From Hyphomonas sp. CY54-11-8 (lineage in GTDB: Bacteria > Pseudomonadota > Alphaproteobacteria > Caulobacterales > Hyphomonadaceae): a stretch of 64,000 nucleotides of DNA. Position 1 is the first letter of the stretch, and the number at the start of each line of letters is the position of its first letter. The stretch lies in the NCBI RefSeq assembly GCF_000682735.1, contig NZ_AWFD01000005.1, forward strand, positions 1 through 64,000, read 5' to 3'. Below the pieces are notes generated by a model that saw only the letters and a list, made by a program, of their open reading frames with translations, did no database searches and was not told where the DNA came from. The position numbers were made by a program, and so were the translations under genes. Positions 43,667 to 51,762 of the stretch are shown one piece after another.

Positions 43667-45430
43667 CTAACCAACAGCCATGAAGGACAGGAGCAGGACA
43701 ATGCCAAGCAGGGCCGCCGTCCAGATCGTCATCGCACCGTTCAGCACTCCGCCGCGGGCCAGTTCACCGCGCGGACTGAACGCCGCTTCGATCCAGTTGT
43801 AGGCACGGCTTGTGATCCGGAAGAAGGCCGCCGTCATCGCCGGACCTGCCTTGCCCCACACCGTTCCGGCCCAGGTGACCAGACTGTAGCCCACTTTGCG
43901 GTAGGACCAGTCGCTGTCGAGGATCACGCCACGTTTCTCCGGCGGGTAAACGTGGAAACGCTTCAGCAGGACGAAGGCAAAGATGGCGAAGATCAGCAGC
44001 TGGAACTGCGTGATGATGTGATCGAACGAGAACAGGTGGTGATGGGAATAGCCCATCGCCTCCTCTCTGTAAGGCAGCAGGCCGTAAAGCCATTCATGGC
44101 CGAAGCCCGGGAACAGCGCCGGCAGGCCGAGGAAGATGCACAGGAACGCCGCGATGCCCATCGCCAGCAGCATGTTGAACGGTGCTTCCTTCACGCGCAG
44201 GCCACTGTCATGGCCGAAAAAGGCGTAATACGGGATCTTGATGCCCGAATGCTCAAGCACACCAGCCGAGGCGAACATGAGCATCAGGAAGATCACCGCA
44301 TAGCCGGCGGTGGCCACTTCCGAGATGATCATCGACTTGGTCACAAAGGCGGAGAACAGCGGGAAGGCAGAAATCGCCATTGCACCGATGATGCAGAACA
44401 GGGTCGTCCACGGCATGGACCGGTGCAGACCGCCCAGCTGGCTCGCCTTCACGGTACCGGTACGATAAAGCACGGCGCCCATCGACATCATCAGCAGGCC
44501 TTTAAAGAAGATATCCGCAAAGGCGTGGGCTGCGACGCCATTGATCGCCAACGGCGTACCGATGCCGACACCGCAGACCATGAAGCCGACCTGGTTGTTG
44601 ATCGAATAGGACAGCACGCGGCGCAGATCGTTTTCGATCACGGCAAAGAAGACCGGGAACACGGTCATGATGGCGCCGATCCAGACCAGGTGCTCCTGCC
44701 CCGGGAACATGCGGGCCAGCGCATAAACGGCCAGTTTGGTCGTGTAGACCGACAGGACGACCGAGCCGACCACGGTCGCCTTCGGATACGCATCCTGCAG
44801 CCAGTTGTGCAGCAGCGGGAACGCCGCCTTGATGCCGAAGGCGATGAAGATGAACAGCACGCCCGGATCGGAAAGATCGGTGAAGGCTTCCAGCGAAAGG
44901 TCGCCGCGGGACTTCAGGACGTAAGCGAGACCATTCAGCAGCAGGACGCCGGACAGGACCTGCACGCCCAGATACCGCATAGCGGCGAAATAGGCTGCCC
45001 GCGTCTGCGCCCGCAGGATCAGGAAGACCGAGCTGATCGCCGTCAGTTCCCAGAACACGAACAGGGTCATCAGGTCGCCGGCCAGCGTCGCGGCGACGGC
45101 AGCGCCGGCGTAGAACAGCGCGGCCCCATCCTGGATCCGGTCATCGGAATGCAGGGCGTAGATGCCATTCAGCACGGCAGCGATCAGGAACGCCAGGCTG
45201 AAGATGAAGTTCAGCGCATCAACGCGGTAGAGCACCATTTTCAGGCCGAGCACCTGCGTCGTCACGAGATCCATGTTCTGCGGGGCGAAGACCAGCAGCA
45301 ACAGCGCCAGAAGCGGCGCAGCAATGGTCACCACCTGGCGCGCCTGGCGCATGGTGATGAACAGGCTCGCGACGCCTGCGATGATCAGCACCCATCCGGG
45401 ATTGAGACCTGCCAGCATGGACGGCATCAC
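43667..45430 (-). CDS. Cation/proton antiporter MnhD/NuoL-like subunit (third copy)
   Basis: A 587-residue membrane protein with about 14-16 helices of the proton-pumping quinone-oxidoreductase/antiporter family. Conserved Lys/Glu positions appear in the LMTLFVFWELTAISS block (~122), AFGIKAAFPLLHNWLQDAYPKA (~207) and AAHAFADIFFKGLLM (~310). A C-terminal extension after ~490 has two more helices. It is last in the operon, joined to the small membrane protein gene by ATGA. It is one of three such subunits. It probably replaces part of MnhA, but the MnhA-typical C-terminal domains are encoded separately by the DUF4040 gene. Confidence 0.88.
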   Translation of the reverse strand: MMPSMLAGLNPGWVLIIAGVASLFITMRQARQVVTIAAPLLALLLLVFAPQNMDLVTTQVLGLKMVLYRVDALNFIFSLAFLIAAVLNGIYALHSDDRIQDGAALFYAGAAVAATLAGDLMTLFVFWELTAISSVFLILRAQTRAAYFAAMRYLGVQVLSGVLLLNGLAYVLKSRGDLSLEAFTDLSDPGVLFIFIAFGIKAAFPLLHNWLQDAYPKATVVGSVVLSVYTTKLAVYALARMFPGQEHLVWIGAIMTVFPVFFAVIENDLRRVLSYSINNQVGFMVCGVGIGTPLAINGVAAHAFADIFFKGLLMMSMGAVLYRTGTVKASQLGGLHRSMPWTTLFCIIGAMAISAFPLFSAFVTKSMIISEVATAGYAVIFLMLMFASAGVLEHSGIKIPYYAFFGHDSGLRVKEAPFNMLLAMGIAAFLCIFLGLPALFPGFGHEWLYGLLPYREEAMGYSHHHLFSFDHIITQFQLLIFAIFAFVLLKRFHVYPPEKRGVILDSDWSYRKVGYSLVTWAGTVWGKAGPAMTAAFFRITSRAYNWIEAAFSPRGELARGGVLNGAMTIWTAALLGIVLLLSFMAVG

Positions 45431-45870
45431 GCGTCTCCCTCGGAAGTGTGGTGCGGCGCCGGCAGGTCATCTGCCATCGGCGCATCCGGATCGATGCCTT
45501 CAGGCGGTCCACCTGCATCGCCGTAATAGTTTTCGTCCCGGCGCAGCAGGTGGCCCAGCGGCCAGCCCATGATCACGGCGAACGCGAAACAGACAAAGCC
45601 CCAGACGCCATAGAAACCGGCATAATTGGCAAAGTTCAGGTACTCATGCCGCGCATGGAAGAAGTCGACAGAAATGACGGCCAGCGCCAGAACCATCAAC
45701 ACATAGAAGATGATGTTGCCGATGCCCTTGCGGTGCGTCCAGCCGAACAGGATCTTCGACAGCGGATGAATGCCGTCTTCCGACGGTGTGTTCAGATTGT
45801 GCACGGACTCTGCCGCACGCTTCACGAAGCGGCCGGAATTGTCGCGGCCATTTTCGGTCGGGTCGCTCAT
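45427..45870 (-). CDS. Small membrane protein embedded in the antiporter operon
   Basis: A 147-residue protein of no recognised family, with a hydrophilic N-terminus (to ~48), two hydrophobic helices (about 53-70 and 85-107) and an acidic, proline-rich C-terminal tail. It starts in ATGA overlap with the upstream D subunit and ends in ATGA overlap with the downstream one, so it is almost surely translated with them. It may be an accessory or assembly subunit of the complex. ATG 45870 is the coupled start; the frame open to 45966 is antisense overlap only. Confidence 0.78.
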   Translation of the reverse strand: MSDPTENGRDNSGRFVKRAAESVHNLNTPSEDGIHPLSKILFGWTHRKGIGNIIFYVLMVLALAVISVDFFHARHEYLNFANYAGFYGVWGFVCFAFAVIMGWPLGHLLRRDENYYGDAGGPPEGIDPDAPMADDLPAPHHTSEGDA

Positions 45871-47375
45871 GGCTGGCCTCCATCCGCGATGTATTCGACG
45901 CGATCCCCAACGGTCGGGGACAGGAATTTCGAAATCGGGCCGACCGCGAAGAACAGGATGATACACAGCGTGGCCGTGATCAGCGGCGCGACAACAGTGG
46001 GCATCGGGGCGCCGTCCGGACGTTTGAACGGCTTCGGTTCCTTCGTGCCGGGCGGCGGCAACAGCGCCAGCAGCGGGATCGGCAGCAGGTAGGCGATGTT
46101 CAGCAGCGACGAGGCGATCAGGACCAGAGACAGGTAGACATTGCCGTGGTCGATGGCGCCCTGCATCAGCTCATACTTCGGCCAGGCACCGGCGAACGGC
46201 GGCAGGCCGATGATAGACATGGAGCCGATCATGAAGGCAATGAAGACCAGCGGCATCTTCCGGCCGAGGCCGCGCATGTCGGAAATATTGGTCAGGCCCG
46301 TGGCGACGTAGATGGCGCCCGCGCACATGAACAGCGTCATCTTGCCGGCGGCGTGGGCAGCGATCTGAAGGCTGCCGCCGAGCCAACCGGCTGGATCCGC
46401 CAGCATCGCACCAGCGACGACATAGGAGAGCTGCGCAATCGTCGAATAAGCAAGCCGCGCCTTCAGATTGTCCTTTGTCATGGCGACCAGCGAGCCGACC
46501 ACCATGGTGAAACAGGCCACCCAGAGCACGAACTCGCGCGCGGGCGTCGCCTCCAGCAGGTCGGTCCCGAAGATGAAGATGGCGATCTTCATGATCGTGA
46601 ACACACCGGCCTTCACGACGGCCACGGCGTGCAGCAGGGCCGAGACCGGCGTCGGCGCAACCATGGCATTGGGCAGCCAGAAATGGACCGGCATCAGCGC
46701 CGCCTTGCCGACACCGAAGGCAAACAGGATCAGCAGCGCGCTGGCGACCGCCGGGCTGATGTCCACACCGGCGAGGAGACCGCCCGGCACGAAATCGAGG
46801 TTCTGCCCGGCAAGGACCCAGGTCCACATCACAGCTGGCAGAAGCAAGCCGATCGAGGTGCCCATCAGGGTCAGCAGGTAGATGCGTCCGCCGCGCTTGG
46901 CCGCGGCATCGCCCTTATGGGTCACCAGCGGGAAGGTCGACAGCGTCAGCACTTCGTAAAAAACAAACAGCGTGAACAGGTTGGCCGACATGGCGACGCC
47001 CAGGGCGCCGAAAATGGCGATGGCGAAGCAGATGTAGAAACGCGTCTGGTTCCGCTCTCGGTTCCCGCGCATGTAACCGACCGAATAGAACGAGTTCACG
47101 ATCCACAGGCCGCTGGCCACAAGAGCGAACAACATGCCCAGCGGTTCCAGCTTGAAGGCGAGGCTGAGGCCCGGCGCCGCCTGACCAAGGTTCAGTTCCG
47201 GGCGCTCCCCGCCTGCCACGTGCATGGTCAGCAGGATGATCACGACAAACAGGATGCCTGCGCCGGTGAAGGTCACCCCTTCCCGCAGGTTCGGTGACCA
47301 ACCCATCACGGCAATGCCGGCCGCAATCAGCAGCGGCAGGACAAGCGCGGCGAGGATCAGGGTCTCAGGGCTCAT
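45867..47375 (-). CDS. Cation/proton antiporter MnhD-like subunit (second copy)
   Basis: A 502-residue NuoL/M/N-family protein with about 14 helices. Channel residues are seen in LFTLFVFYEVLTLSTFPLV (Glu ~135), VGKAALMPVHFWLPNAMVAP (Lys ~222) and AHAAGKMTLFMCAG (Lys ~339). It conducts protons as part of the multisubunit antiporter. ATGA overlaps join it to the genes on both sides. Confidence 0.9.
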   Translation of the reverse strand: MSPETLILAALVLPLLIAAGIAVMGWSPNLREGVTFTGAGILFVVIILLTMHVAGGERPELNLGQAAPGLSLAFKLEPLGMLFALVASGLWIVNSFYSVGYMRGNRERNQTRFYICFAIAIFGALGVAMSANLFTLFVFYEVLTLSTFPLVTHKGDAAAKRGGRIYLLTLMGTSIGLLLPAVMWTWVLAGQNLDFVPGGLLAGVDISPAVASALLILFAFGVGKAALMPVHFWLPNAMVAPTPVSALLHAVAVVKAGVFTIMKIAIFIFGTDLLEATPAREFVLWVACFTMVVGSLVAMTKDNLKARLAYSTIAQLSYVVAGAMLADPAGWLGGSLQIAAHAAGKMTLFMCAGAIYVATGLTNISDMRGLGRKMPLVFIAFMIGSMSIIGLPPFAGAWPKYELMQGAIDHGNVYLSLVLIASSLLNIAYLLPIPLLALLPPPGTKEPKPFKRPDGAPMPTVVAPLITATLCIILFFAVGPISKFLSPTVGDRVEYIADGGQP

Positions 47376-48904
47376 CGGAACGCCTCCACACCGAAGGCTG
47401 CAGCGGCCGCGTCACGCGCGAGGCCGAGCGGGAAGTCCGCCGCGATGCCGAAATACAGATTGGCCAGCGCCAGGATCCAGAGCGGAACAAGCAGGAGGAC
47501 CGGTGCCTCCTTGCGTGTCTTTCGCGGATTAACCGGAGGCTGGAAGAACACCGCCTCCAGAACGCGGCCCATATAGATCACCGCCAGGAAGGACGAGAAC
47601 ACGACAAGGCCGACGGCCCACCAGAGGCCCTGGTCGAACAGGGCGAAGCCGAGCTGGAGCTTCGACTGGAAGCCCGCCGTCAGCGGCACGCCGATCAGCG
47701 ACAGCGCAGCAATGGCAAATGCCGTCATGGTCCACGGTGCTGACCGGCCAAGTCCGGCAAAGTCCCGTATCGTCGTGCCCTGGTAGGTCAGGACCACGCC
47801 GGCGACCGCCATGAACAGCGCGCCTTTCATCATGGCATGGTTGACCAGGTGGAACAGGCCAGCTGAGAGGCCCGCCGTCGTGCCGATCGAGACGCCGAGG
47901 ATCATGTAACCGACCTGCGCCACTGAGGAATATGCGAGGATCCTGCGCACATCGGTCTGGAACACCGCCTGGAAGCTGCAGACCACCATGGCCGCAATGC
48001 CAAGCGGCATGAGGATCGCGCTGAAGGCGGAAATCTCGAAGCCATAGTCCGGACGGAAGACGGTGAACAGGAACCGGATCAACGCATAGAGTGCAACCTT
48101 GGTCGCCGTCGCCGACAGGAACATCGTCACGAAGGTCGGGCTGTAGGAATAGGCATTCGGCAACCACTGGTGCAGCGGCCACATCGCGGCTTTGAGGCCG
48201 AGGCCAACAAGGATGAAGGCAAAGCCCGCCTGCACGCTGCGATGCCCGGCCAGTTCCGGAAGCAGCGTGGAAATCTGGTACATGTTCAGCGTACCGGTCG
48301 CGGCATAAAGGAAGCCGATACCGATGATGTAGAAGCTGGCGCCAAGCGTACCCATGATGAGGTAGTTGAAGGCGGCCGGCAGGGCCCGGCGGTCACGTCC
48401 CGATCCAAGCGCAACGAGCACATAGGTCGAGATCGAGGAAATCTCGAGGAAGACGAAGAGGTTGAACGCGTCGCCCGTGATCGCCACACCGTTGAGGCCC
48501 GCGAAACAGACGAGGAAAGCGGAATAGAACAGTGCCCGCTTCCGCTTGGGGATTTCCGCAACAACGGTCGGCCAGGAGAAGACCGAGGCCAGCAGGCCAA
48601 TCGTCGTGACGATCAGCAGGATCATGGCGTTCAGCGCATCGACGCGCAGCTCGATGCCCAGCGGCACAGGCCAGCGGCCGACCTCGTACGAAACAACACC
48701 GATCGGCGACGTCTGCACCAGGCCGAGCAGGATGAGCGCGAACAGGAAGCTGATGCCCGTCGCCGCAATAGAGATCAGCCACGCAATGCGGCCTGTCGGT
48801 ACAAGTGCCAGCAATGGCGCCAGGAACAGCGGCACCATGACGAGCAGCGGCGCGGCATGCGACAGCGCCCAGGCTGGCGCAGCATTCAGAATAGCGTCGA
48901 TCAT
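47372..48904 (-). CDS. mnhD: Cation/proton antiporter subunit D (first copy)
   Basis: A 510-residue membrane subunit of about 14 helices. It has the proton-channel motifs AFNLFVFLEISSISTYVLV (Glu ~145), GLGLKAAMWPLHQWLPNAYS (Lys ~248) and LVNHAMMKGALFMAVAG (Lys ~368). Position directly after subunits B and C matches MnhD/MrpD, or MbhH in Mbh-type complexes. ATGA overlaps join it to subunit C and to the second D copy. Confidence 0.92.
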   Translation of the reverse strand: MIDAILNAAPAWALSHAAPLLVMVPLFLAPLLALVPTGRIAWLISIAATGISFLFALILLGLVQTSPIGVVSYEVGRWPVPLGIELRVDALNAMILLIVTTIGLLASVFSWPTVVAEIPKRKRALFYSAFLVCFAGLNGVAITGDAFNLFVFLEISSISTYVLVALGSGRDRRALPAAFNYLIMGTLGASFYIIGIGFLYAATGTLNMYQISTLLPELAGHRSVQAGFAFILVGLGLKAAMWPLHQWLPNAYSYSPTFVTMFLSATATKVALYALIRFLFTVFRPDYGFEISAFSAILMPLGIAAMVVCSFQAVFQTDVRRILAYSSVAQVGYMILGVSIGTTAGLSAGLFHLVNHAMMKGALFMAVAGVVLTYQGTTIRDFAGLGRSAPWTMTAFAIAALSLIGVPLTAGFQSKLQLGFALFDQGLWWAVGLVVFSSFLAVIYMGRVLEAVFFQPPVNPRKTRKEAPVLLLVPLWILALANLYFGIAADFPLGLARDAAAAAFGVEAFR

Positions 48905-49425
48905 GCGGTCGCCTCGCTCACGGCTTTTTCCGCCTCGGCGTGCTGGGCCAGTGCGGTTTCAAGATCGATTTCATTCACTTCGTCATTCTCGATCGAGCCA
49001 TAGGCTTCCCGGATGCGCACGACGAGGGCGAGGCCGACCGACAAGGTCGCCACACCGACGACGATGGCCGTCAGCATCAGGACGTGCGGCAGCGGGTTGG
49101 AATAGGTATTGGTCAGGTGCGCCACGCGTTCGGCATGTTCCCCGCCTGCGGCCAGCACGGCATCGAGCGCCGCATGGCCGCCTTCTGTCTCCGCGCCGTG
49201 ACCAGCGCCATGATGTTCAATGGCATCATCACCGAACAGGATGGGCGCGGTGCCGCCGGAGACTTTGCCGAGGGTCACATAGAACAGACAGATCGTCGTC
49301 TGGAACAGGCCGAGGCCAACCATCCGCTTGATCAGGTTCTGGGACGCAAAAGTGATGTAGAGGCCGATCATCATCAGGACGATGACGACCCAGTAGTTCG
49401 CGCGTTCGAGCAGGAATTCCAGCAT
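48901..49425 (-). CDS. mnhC: Antiporter subunit C (NuoK-like) with a His-rich insertion
   Basis: A 174-residue NuoK/MnhC-like protein, longer than the usual ~110-125. Helices 1 and 2 (LLERANYWVVIVLMMIGLYI and the KRMVGLGLFQTTICLFYVTLG region) are followed by a soluble insertion (about 65-110) rich in His, Gly, Ala and Glu. The third helix (PLPHVLMLTAIVVGVATLSVGLALVV) then follows, with an acidic C-terminal tail. The insertion (EHHGAGHGAETEGGH and onward) could bind metal or dock to another subunit. Three bases separate it from mnhB. Confidence 0.9.
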   Translation of the reverse strand: MLEFLLERANYWVVIVLMMIGLYITFASQNLIKRMVGLGLFQTTICLFYVTLGKVSGGTAPILFGDDAIEHHGAGHGAETEGGHAALDAVLAAGGEHAERVAHLTNTYSNPLPHVLMLTAIVVGVATLSVGLALVVRIREAYGSIENDEVNEIDLETALAQHAEAEKAVSEATA

Positions 49426-49428
49426 GGC

Positions 49429-49881
49429 TTACCAGTCCTCGTCGCGGATTTCGGCCACGCGGCCGGCAAAGGCATAGAAGATCGTCAGCATCGCACCAGA
49501 CACGCCGCAAAGCACGCCGAGTTCGATCCCGAGAATGCCGATGTGCTGGCCGTGGTGCTCGCCGGGCGGCTCATGGAACAGGGCCTGGTATTCCAGATAG
49601 TGGCCGCCTTGCAGCATCGCCCAGAAGCCGACGCCGGCATAGATCATCACGCCGACTGCAGCGAGTGAGCGGGTGAAGACCGGCGGCACGGCGCGCATGG
49701 CTGCCGGCACCCCGAAGACGAGTGCATAAAGGATGACGGCGACGGCAATGATGACACCCGCCTGGAAGCCGCCACCGGGGCCGAAGTCACCGTGGAACTG
49801 AACATAGAAGGCAAACATGGTGATCACGGGGATCAGCATCTTAGCGATGACGCGCAGGATGACGTGGTGATCGGTGTTCAT
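49429..49881 (-). CDS. mnhB: Antiporter subunit B
   Basis: A 150-residue MnhB-family protein of four helices with the conserved FGPGGGFQAGVIIAVAVILYALVFG block (~32-56). An extra His/Glu-containing loop lies at about 103-117 (EPPGEHHGQH). It overlaps the upstream DUF4040 gene by ATGA and is followed by subunit C after three bases. Confidence 0.92.
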   Translation of the reverse strand: MNTDHHVILRVIAKMLIPVITMFAFYVQFHGDFGPGGGFQAGVIIAVAVILYALVFGVPAAMRAVPPVFTRSLAAVGVMIYAGVGFWAMLQGGHYLEYQALFHEPPGEHHGQHIGILGIELGVLCGVSGAMLTIFYAFAGRVAEIRDEDW

Positions 49882-50519
49882 GAGGGATCCTCATCACTTG
49901 CGGCCGAAGCCTTGCGTGTACTGTGATCACCCGAACGGCCTTCATTGCGGATACGCTCAGCCAGCGAGCGCTCGCCAAAACCGAGCAGCAGCGCGACGGC
50001 AAGGCCGGCGGTAAATACAACGCACGTTTCGCCCAGCGTATCGAAGCCACGATAGCTGCCGAGGACCGGGGTTACGACGTTCGGGATGCCCGTTTCGAAC
50101 CAGGCCACCTGAAGATAAGTGAGCCCCACGCCCGCATTGGCCGGCGAGGACGCATCGCCAAGGGCCGGAAGGTCCACAGTTGCGTAGATCAGGGCGGCGC
50201 CGGTCGCGAGGCAGACAAGCAGCGGGCCAAGGCGGAAGAAGAGCTTTTCCGGTTTCGCCGTGCGTGAGGTAAGCAGCATGGCACCCAGCAGGACGACCGT
50301 CGACATGCCGGCGCCGACGGCAGCCTCCGTAAAGGCGACGTCGACCGCGTCGACAGCGACATACCAGGCGGCGGACACGAGCGAGTAAATGCCAGACAGC
50401 ATCACGATCGCGAACAGGCTGCGCATCCGGGCAATCGCCACACCGGTCGCAAACAGGATGGCGAGCAGGAAAATGTTGACGAGGACGATACCGAAATCGC
50501 CGTTGAACATGCTGTGCAT
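49878..50519 (-). CDS. DUF4040/MbhE fusion subunit (MnhA C-terminal equivalent)
   Basis: A 213-residue membrane protein joining two parts usually found at the C-terminus of MnhA or as MbhD and MbhE. The N-terminal DUF4040 domain has a TEAAVGAGMSTVVLLGAML block (~64). The second domain has the VAWFETGIPNVVTPVLGSYRGFDTLGETCVVFTAGLAVALL block typical of MbhE/MnhB-N regions. It fills the gap left by the missing full-length MnhA. ATG 50519 overlaps the mnhG stop by one base, and the gene overlaps mnhB by ATGA. Confidence 0.85.
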   Translation of the reverse strand: MHSMFNGDFGIVLVNIFLLAILFATGVAIARMRSLFAIVMLSGIYSLVSAAWYVAVDAVDVAFTEAAVGAGMSTVVLLGAMLLTSRTAKPEKLFFRLGPLLVCLATGAALIYATVDLPALGDASSPANAGVGLTYLQVAWFETGIPNVVTPVLGSYRGFDTLGETCVVFTAGLAVALLLGFGERSLAERIRNEGRSGDHSTRKASAASDEDPS

Positions 50520-50890
50520 CAGGCGTCCTCCCCTTCCGCTTCAGACGTTCCGACCCGGCCGATGATCGGCTGGACACCGGCGGTGTGGGCCGCATTGGCC
50601 AGCGCATGCGACGCGGTCGGGCTGGTCAGGAAGATGAAGACGCAGATCGCGAACAGTTTGGAGATGACCAGCCAGCCCGGCGACAGCAGCATCATGCCGA
50701 ACAGCACCAATGCGGCGCCCGATGTGTCTGTGATCGAGGCGGCATGCAGGCGGGTATAGATGTCCGGGAAACGCAACACCCCAACTGTGCCGATGACACA
50801 AAGGATGGATCCGCCGAGGCACAGAAGTGCGCCCAGCGGGAAGCGGATCATTTCCCAGTATCCGTGAAGGTCAGCAAGGAACTCAGCCAT
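50519..50890 (-). CDS. mnhG: Antiporter subunit G
   Basis: A 123-residue MnhG/MrpG-family protein of three helices with the conserved GTVGVLRFPDIYTRLHAASITDTSGAALVLFGMM block (~34-67). It overlaps mnhF by 8 bases and the DUF4040 gene by one. It is a small structural subunit of the antiporter. Confidence 0.93.
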   Translation of the reverse strand: MAEFLADLHGYWEMIRFPLGALLCLGGSILCVIGTVGVLRFPDIYTRLHAASITDTSGAALVLFGMMLLSPGWLVISKLFAICVFIFLTSPTASHALANAAHTAGVQPIIGRVGTSEAEGEDA

Positions 50891-51179
50891 CGGCGTTGCC
50901 TCCCTGCCCGCGGCGCACCAGCGGCACCTGGAACGACCGGTAACGGAAGAACTTCAGGATCGCGATCGTCGAAACGAAGTTGATCAGCGCATAGGTAATG
51001 GCAATGTCGAGGAATTCCGGACGGTCCATCACAAAGCCCAGAAGGCCGAGCGCCAGCACGGTTTTCGTGCCGAAGGAGTTCACCGCCAGGATGCGGTCAT
51101 AAAGCGTCGGCCCGATAAAGGCGCGCAGCAGGAGCAGCGCCATTCCAAACAGGATCGCGATCAGCGCGGCGGCGGTCAT
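50883..51179 (-). CDS. mnhF: Antiporter subunit F
   Basis: A 98-residue MnhF/MrpF protein of three helices with the conserved LRAFIGPTLYDRILAVNSFGTKTVL block and a late FLDIAITYALINFVSTIAILKFF block. It starts in ATGA overlap with mnhE. Confidence 0.93.
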   Translation of the reverse strand: MTAAALIAILFGMALLLLRAFIGPTLYDRILAVNSFGTKTVLALGLLGFVMDRPEFLDIAITYALINFVSTIAILKFFRYRSFQVPLVRRGQGGNADG

Positions 51180-51664
51180 GCAGCAGCTCCCTTTCCGTCA
51201 ATCGCGCGGGCAGAGCGCTGGTCCATTTCAACAAAAGCTTCCGGCTGGGAATCCTGTTCGTACAGTCCGTGCACCAGCAGCTTGTCGCCTTCGATCTCCA
51301 CCGTCACGGTGCCCGGCGTCAGCGTGATCGAGTTGGCGAATGTCACCTTGGCGAGGTCCGATTTGCAGATCGTCTTCACCTTCACCAGCGCCGGCGCGAT
51401 ATCAAGGTCCGCCTTCACGCAGGCGCGGATGACGCTGATATTCGCCTTGACGATCTCCTTGGCCAGCCAGGGAAAGTAAAGGAGGAAACCGACAAGGCGC
51501 ACATAGGGCGAGCCTTCACGGTCAATGATGTCCAGCCTGTAGGCCAGAATGCACGTCACGATGAGCGAGATGCCGCCCAATGAAAGAATCAACGGGGTAT
51601 TGTGGCCGGACATTCCGAGCCAGAACGCCGCCAAAGCCAGTACCAGCCCCAGAAAATACGCCAC
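51176..51664 (-). CDS. mnhE: Antiporter subunit E, first gene of the operon
   Basis: A 162-residue MnhE/MrpE-family protein with two or three N-terminal helices. It carries the family's PWLAKEIVKANISVIRAC and LAKVTFANSITLTPGTVTVEIEGDKLLVHGL blocks. It is the first gene of a ten-gene minus-strand operon. GTG 51664 is chosen because GAGGG lies six bases upstream; TTG 51670 touches that site and is less likely. Confidence 0.92.
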   Translation of the reverse strand: MAYFLGLVLALAAFWLGMSGHNTPLILSLGGISLIVTCILAYRLDIIDREGSPYVRLVGFLLYFPWLAKEIVKANISVIRACVKADLDIAPALVKVKTICKSDLAKVTFANSITLTPGTVTVEIEGDKLLVHGLYEQDSQPEAFVEMDQRSARAIDGKGAAA

Positions 51665-51762
51665 GCGCAACCCTCTTCCGATCGCCCTTAACCGGGATTG
51701 GGACTAAAGGTGTTAAGTGGTTTTGAAAAGCCCGTTCCCGACGCTTTTACAGTTTTGAGCGG

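Follow-up and report, generated by a model that had tools for sequence, protein, structure and literature searches.

Mrp-type cation/proton antiporters of groups 1 and 2 hold an N-terminal antiporter domain and C-terminal MbhD/E-type domains in one long MrpA protein. Group 3, in the available part of its description, is reported to have no mrpA and only mrpD, sometimes in several copies (PMC8415708). In the rhizobial-type green complex I, two MrpD-like subunits are described, in the accessible sections of the reports, as replacing NuoL (PMC9040806, PMC7415380). Here, we analyze a 64,000-nucleotide stretch of the Hyphomonas sp. CY54-11-8 genome (contig NZ_AWFD01000005.1, positions 1 to 64,000; hereafter the window) that carries ten contiguous open genes on the minus strand, from base 51670 down to base 43667, in the order E-F-G-X-B-C-D1-D2-O-D3, where X joins MbhD and MbhE, D1 to D3 are antiporter-like and O is a small membrane protein. 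Its gene content places the system in group 3 Mrp (CPA3), with D2-O-D3 as an extension. Taken as a whole, the data are best explained by one stand-alone, ten-subunit group 3 Mrp-type cation/proton antiporter with three antiporter-like subunits, which we consider probable.

Nine of the ten operon genes are named by Pfam (MNHE, MrpF_PhaF, PhaG_MnhG_YufB, MbhD+MbhE, MnhB, Oxidored_q2 and three times Proton_antipo_M). Neighboring genes overlap by 1 to 8 bases at eight of the nine junctions, and a 3-base gap separates B from C. The curated NCBIfam cut-offs are passed by D3 (as PRK12668), X, B, C and G, while D1 (best model PRK12662) and D2 (best model PRK08375) stay below the cut-offs of their best models. 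The genome (3.9 Mb) holds six PF00361 matches, three in the operon (contig C5) and three on contig C7; the latter appear to be NuoL, NuoM and NuoN, as judged from our tree and, for NuoL, from a TIGR01974 match. A TIGR00940 search at E <= 1e-100 found no MrpA in the genome. The first-pass annotation of this DNA had claimed the ten-gene order, the lengths of the three D-type proteins (510, 502 and 587 residues), the lack of a full-length MrpA and the presence of the MrpA C-terminal domains in a separate 213-residue gene, all of which our analysis upholds. It had also named, as one finding that would speak against its reading, a set already described as a standard Mrp group. This is largely the case: three PF00361 genes of 502 to 587 residues, mrpB, mrpC, mrpE, mrpF and mrpG recognized by Pfam and no long MrpA found in the genome place the set within group 3 as described (PMC8415708, available part).

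The family of D3 (NF009310) served as a marker of the ten-gene set. It is above its curated cut-off in 32 of 142 alphaproteobacterial genomes and matches at E < 1e-100 in 36, about a quarter of that sample. Among the source genome and its nearest relatives, 31 of 41 genomes pass the cut-off, as do 15 of 299 in a phylum-wide sample. Each of 34 alphaproteobacterial loci (L031-L064), drawn from 33 of the 36 D3-positive genomes, matches the full set of ten profiles; in three of these loci (L035, L045 and L051) neighboring genes are printed in exchanged order, which we attribute to sorting by stop-to-stop frames. The loci from named genomes are the best 80 of at least 573 confirmed stretches, picked by likeness to the window's D3. 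Since 62 of these best 80, sorted by match position, keep the same ten genes in the same order, a chance assembly is excluded. The remaining 18 comprise six loci with extra copies or split frames and 12 partial ones; D3 lies less than 4.5 kilobases from the locus start in 11 of the latter, too close for the remaining genes to be visible, and the other, L129, is a lone D2-O-D3. By record title only, and titles of metagenome-assembled genomes may be wrong, 20 loci belong to Gammaproteobacteria and their orders, Betaproteobacteria, Planctomycetota, Nitrospira and Sulfopaludibacter. The exact order is found in 17 of them, L108 and L116 have a second X match, and L137 is cut. In its best segment, the window's D3 is 84% identical to that of a metagenome-assembled genome titled Hyphomonas sp. 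and 71% identical to that of Hyphomonas johnsonii. Mutual exclusion of MrpA and the ten-gene set was considered and dropped: in a 96-genome sample, MrpA occurs in 13 genomes, D3 in 23 and both in 3 (G034, G087 and G091), which is about the chance expectation.

Several side observations were made on these loci. L095, in a record titled Candidatus Sulfopaludibacter, carries an operon whose D3 is 70% identical to the window's, perhaps on a wrongly binned contig. The two X matches of L108 and L116 (titled Planctomycetaceae and Planctomycetota) are consecutive, and the spacing between transmembrane helices (TM) 15 and 16 of their D3 is 102 and 101, compared to about 88 (see below). In L031, L038, L054, L059, L062, L073, L076 and L085, X and B were matched within a single open frame, which may be a natural fusion of the PRK12507 kind. 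One genome of the same phylum, G213 (L072-L074), has three D3 copies, two in operons and one in a lone cassette.

MrpA is divided in this operon rather than absent, with D2 as an MrpA/NuoL-like subunit and X as the C-terminal part of MrpA. X aligns to MrpA residues 604-766 of 7d3u and 654-809 of 6z16, and its listed matches also include MbhD, MbhE, MbsD and MbsE. D2, with its green complex I counterpart, is the sister of MrpA and NuoL together (support 95/85). What groups 1 and 2 combine in one long protein is encoded here by two separate genes. Since these parts of MrpA are recognizable in D2 and X, a simple loss of MrpA is rejected. D2 was also tried as a true MrpA, and a clade of D2 and MrpA only was rejected by the approximately unbiased test (p-AU 0.0076). 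A one-residue His insertion in TM8 is present in 51 of 52 D2-type rows and in 7 of 7 MrpA, and in none of 50 D1, 51 D3 or 9 MrpD rows. This is reminiscent of the added His that the TM8 pi-bulge of MrpA carries and that is conserved in NuoL, according to the accessible text of the Mrp structure paper (PMC7419157).

Our tree comprises 86 proteins, with mostly alphaproteobacterial references and nine fragments of solved chains, and its deep branches should be read with caution. D1 forms one clade on the MrpD/MbhH/MbsH/NuoN side (86/60), outside the MrpD clade, although uniting it with MrpD is not rejected (p-AU 0.37); its best relative among solved chains is MbsH (246 bits). D3 forms one clade with green complex I D3, beside MbsH' of the Pyrococcus furiosus MBS complex (93/92), MbsH' being a single long-branch row.

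All three D subunits of the window keep the channel residues. Across the loci, TM5 Glu, TM7 Lys, TM8 Lys and TM12 Lys are each present in 50 of 50 D1; D2 has TM5 Glu, TM7 Lys and TM12 Lys in 49 of 49 and TM8 Lys in 48 of 49 (and in 3 of 3 green D2), and so combines the His and Lys that are typical of MrpA TM8. In D3, TM5 Glu, TM8 Lys and TM12 Lys are each found in 49 of 50. The TM7 Lys of D3 is more variable, being kept in 34 of 49 sample loci and replaced by Asn in 13, Ser in 1 and Arg in 1. The window keeps it, and so do all of the best 80 named loci; because these were selected for their similarity to the window, they bias the pooled figure (120/135), and we use the sample figure instead. 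In the green-type D3 (L080, L091, L092, L218, L220 and L221), Asn occupies this position in 6 of 6. MbsH has Glu there, yet it is regarded as a pump by its authors, as far as the available part of their report goes.

D2 would have no room for a lateral helix, because its last hydrophobic segment (residues 455-489) ends close to the C terminus of the 502-residue protein. In the structure model of D3, a 45-residue helix (507-551), the predicted lateral helix, is followed by a last helix (564-586), TM16. This model has a mean predicted local distance difference test score (pLDDT) of 89.6 and a predicted template modeling score (pTM) of 0.86, and its first four fold matches are all MrpA or NuoL chains. 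We measured the spacing from the TM15 start to the TM16 start on alignments, with anchor residues matched across the three families by ourselves; we excluded two D3 rows that are truncated and, of the 14 MrpA rows, the 3 in which the anchor motif is missing. A spacing taken from hydropathy only had given scattered values (D3, 5-78; NuoL, 8-77), attributed to stretches of the lateral helix that were mistaken for membrane segments, and was replaced. The median is 63 in MrpA (58-68, n = 11), 88 in D3 outside complex I (79-102, n = 133; 87 in the sample loci alone, 79-92, n = 47) and 104 in NuoL (99-107, n = 31), and the value is 106 in all 6 rows of green complex I D3. For the Manganitrophaceae complex with five pumps, the accessible part of the report gives a 26-residue insertion (PMC9040806). 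The resulting series, in which two, three, four and five pumps go with 63, 88, 106 and a further 26 residues, is consistent with D3 bracing both D2 and D1, as support and not as proof. The extra channel in one complex, envisaged by the first-pass annotation, gains some support from the channel residues of D1 to D3 in the window and from a D3 lateral-helix segment longer than that of MrpA.

The small gene O, passed over as a mere open reading frame by that annotation, stands beside D3 in nearly every locus and directly before it in all of the best 80 named loci. The O profile matches 36 of the 142 alphaproteobacterial genomes, 35 of which are among the 36 D3-positive ones; the remaining match, in G097, is weak (E 7.5e-4). 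The one D3-positive genome outside this set, G106, encodes a divergent D3, next to which O scores weakly (17 bits). Because most rows of the profile come from the D3-positive genomes, matches in that group are to some extent circular, which does not apply to the near absence of O from the 106 D3-negative genomes. Two helices are predicted in O, at residues 50-71 and 86-109, and hydropathy agrees on two hydrophobic helices. The C-terminal end is conserved, roughly LR..L.R.EDYYD. When 50 members of the family were scanned, neither Pfam nor NCBIfam gave a convincing match; weak library matches (best E 0.0018 and 0.0031, each with at most 4 of the 50 members among the matches listed) were taken as chance.

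D2-O-D3 also occurs in another context. In L080, continued in L090, the matches run NuoJ, NuoK, D2, O, D3, NuoM and a NuoN-like frame, followed by the 20, 30, 49 and 51 kDa subunits. Two further genomes of this family give single matched neighbors, a NuoM-type protein in L092 and a NuoG-type protein in L091. L218, L220 and L221 were assigned to the green type on account of a NuoM-like match downstream. From their gene content, we infer that L080-type clusters encode the published green complex I. The window set is different in that its D2-O-D3 adjoins D1 of an Mrp operon and its genome has a NuoL on C7. In the tree, the green D3 sequences branch from within those of Mrp (99/89), and green D2 forms the sister group of the Mrp D2 as a whole (98/84); because of the latter, a transfer from Mrp to green complex I is suggested by D3 only. 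As an aside, a relative (L086, G449:C16:1-9500) has a complex-I-like cluster in which a 49 kDa-type protein, with an additional match to a heavy-metal-binding domain, is followed by NuoH-, NuoJ- and three antiporter-like proteins.

In the stand-alone antiporter that we propose, protons would pass through an arm made of D3-D2-D1-C, whose tip is D3, and cations through the X-B-G-F-E end. What the single MrpA of groups 1 and 2 does would be shared among D2 (core related to MrpA-N/NuoL), X (C-terminal part) and D3 (an extra channel-type subunit with TM15, lateral helix and TM16), and O may be a small membrane subunit associated with D2 and D3 as a pair. Protons entering by two or three channels would drive Na+ or K+ export; a changed ratio of protons per cation is therefore possible. 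Assembly into one complex, the position of O, the ion, the direction and the stoichiometry are all parts of this proposal that we put forward conditionally.

A number of points weigh against the proposal. The placement of D3 is not firm, as its grouping with D2, MrpA and NuoL is not rejected (p-AU 0.24). Confidence in the D3 model is lowest at the lateral helix and TM16 (blocks over 501-587 with pLDDT 56-83), and the O model is of moderate confidence (pLDDT 73.7, pTM 0.46). NuoL, with three pumps, has a spacing of 104 and D3, with three, one of 88, so that spacing is no plain ruler. Moreover, D2-O-D3 is found alone, without the other seven genes alongside, at L072:7151-10716 and L129:7693-11186, surrounded on the opposite strand by flagellar and regulatory genes (L072) or transporter and ion channel genes (L129). 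Since the D3 of these lone cassettes shows the same spacing (89 and 86), spacing by itself does not prove a D3-D1 contact. Lastly, the TM7 Lys of D3 is lost in 15 of the 49 sample loci, and a third channel need not work everywhere.

One alternative is an ordinary two-channel Mrp, in which D1 and D2 would work, D3 would mainly be a structural clamp that donates the lateral helix, with O as its partner, and the cation:proton ratio would be unchanged. Such an arrangement would fit the frequent loss of the TM7 Lys in D3 only, including all six green rows, while every D1 and D2 row keeps it; it would also answer the need of D2, which lacks a lateral helix of its own, to have one supplied. We nevertheless regard it as unlikely: the window and about two-thirds of the sample D3 retain the Lys (as do the best 80 named loci, albeit picked by window likeness), and the other three channel residues of D3 are almost invariant.

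Two assemblies could also arise from one operon, a small Mbh-like Mrp (E-F-G-X-B-C-D1) and a D2-O-D3 subcomplex, acting alone or docking elsewhere, e.g., on complex I. The single D of the P. furiosus Mrp, in the available part of its description (PMC8415708), would agree with the former, and the trio in the L080 complex I cluster and as a lone unit in L072 and L129 with the latter. We find this scenario improbable, given that the ten genes stay together in one order in most loci, that nearly all junctions in the window overlap and that the window genome has its own NuoL; the lone units may serve other antiporter-like genes, which the L072 and L129 genomes hold elsewhere. The operon would very improbably encode the membrane part of an Mbh/MBS-type redox-driven complex with electron-transfer subunits encoded elsewhere. 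The likeness of D1 to MbsH, the grouping of D3 with MbsH' and the Mbh-like order are what this idea would explain. Against it, Pfam found no hydrogenase, sulfane reductase or electron-transfer gene among the ten, the flanks and the rest of the genome lying outside that search, and the order is maintained in most of the best named relatives.

Returning to the ten-subunit antiporter, D2-O-D3 could quite possibly be a portable module for the distal end, in effect a NuoL/MrpA-like tip that is divided and has a subunit of its own, O. It would be used on a three-channel Mrp, as a lone cassette and, with a longer lateral-helix segment, on complex I. The origin of the green tip would then be a D2-O-D3 cassette of the Mrp type and not NuoL, and green D3, without the TM7 Lys, may not pump as assumed. 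The Asn in all six green-type rows is a caution for claims of an extra proton pumped by green complex I. More broadly, the number of antiporter-like subunits and the adaptation of the lateral helix bear on the open question of ion stoichiometry in complex I relatives, for which this antiporter would provide an example with three pumps and no redox chemistry, its tip shared with green complex I. Our literature search, weak on subscription journals, found no description of O or of the TM15-TM16 spacing series and recognized no printed three-D Mrp with such a small gene. The system as a whole we consider moderately surprising, since extra D genes and the two-MrpD tip are already in print.

The coordinates of the ten genes are given in Table 1. 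MrpE starts with TTG at 51670, and 51664 lies two codons further in, at a Val codon in that frame. O was first listed as 45427-45966 (179 residues); a Met overlapping the D2 stop by 4 bases gives the shorter form in the table, which we prefer because its size is nearer that of O relatives. The His-rich insertion of MrpC sits between helices 2 and 3; the C match in the window has 174 residues, compared to 110-129 in 86 of 119 loci, and several of the longest other C matches come from Hyphomonas, Henriciella and other members of the same order.

Table 1. Genes of the Mrp-type operon in the window, in operon order
Gene product	Length (residues)	Coordinates	Strand	Basis
MrpE (MnhE)	164	51176..51670	minus	PF01899 E 2e-29
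MrpF	98	50883..51179	minus	PF04066 E 6e-19
MrpG	123	50519..50890	minus	PF03334 E 8e-26; TIGR01300 above cut-off
X, MbhD+MbhE fusion, putative MrpA C-terminal equivalent	213	49878..50519	minus	PF13244 + PF20501; NF009159 above cut-off
MrpB (MnhB)	150	49429..49881	minus	PF04039 E 1e-27; NF009162 above cut-off
MrpC (NuoK-like), His-rich insertion	174	48901..49425	minus	PF00420 E 3e-18; NF005624 above cut-off
D1, MrpD/MbhH/MbsH/NuoN side	510	47372..48904	minus	PF00361 E 2.5e-63; tree; MbsH 246 bits
D2, MrpA-N/NuoL-like, without lateral helix	502	45867..47375	minus	PF00361 E 5e-49; tree; TM8 His
O, small membrane protein, two predicted membrane helices	147	45427..45870	minus	Conserved position before D3
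D3, antiporter-like, TM15 + predicted lateral helix + TM16	587	43667..45430	minus	NF009310 651.6 bits vs cut-off 564

In the Mbh and MBS redox complexes, the Mrp-like genes follow the order E-F-G-D/E-B-C-D. The Mbh-like order that the first-pass annotation had recognized is indeed that of the window, and it is shared with stand-alone group 3 Mrp. As far as the available part of its description goes, the stand-alone Mrp of P. furiosus (mrpEFGBB'CD) likewise has no mrpA, has an MbhD+E fusion followed by an MnhB-type gene and runs E-F-G-X-B-C-D; it stops at one D, whereas the window operon continues with D2, O and D3 (PMC8415708). The group 3 Mrp locus of 'Candidatus Nitrospira alkalitolerans', compared by description only, lies in a region for which nhaB, bicA and motB are also named and, in the accessible text, no O-like gene. 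The cyanobacterial group 3 system of Aphanothece halophytica (mrpCD1D2EFGAB) resembles the window in having several D genes, and Na+/H+ antiport in Escherichia coli is reported for it; according to the same partial source, it differs by its gene order and by having two D genes versus three (PMC5703873). In another alphaproteobacterium, Ehrlichia, the antiporter genes (E, F, G, DUF4040, B, C and D) include the same F-G-DUF4040-B-C run, and the predicted antiporters are reported to be active in an E. coli mutant. There, D and E are at other loci, and the available part of the report names no O (PMC8395091). In green complex I, two MrpD-like subunits replace NuoL, and in the clusters analyzed these belong to the D2 and D3 families and flank O, as in the window operon; green complex I differs in belonging to an NADH:quinone oxidoreductase cluster, in a D3 spacing of 106 versus 88 and in having Asn for the TM7 Lys.

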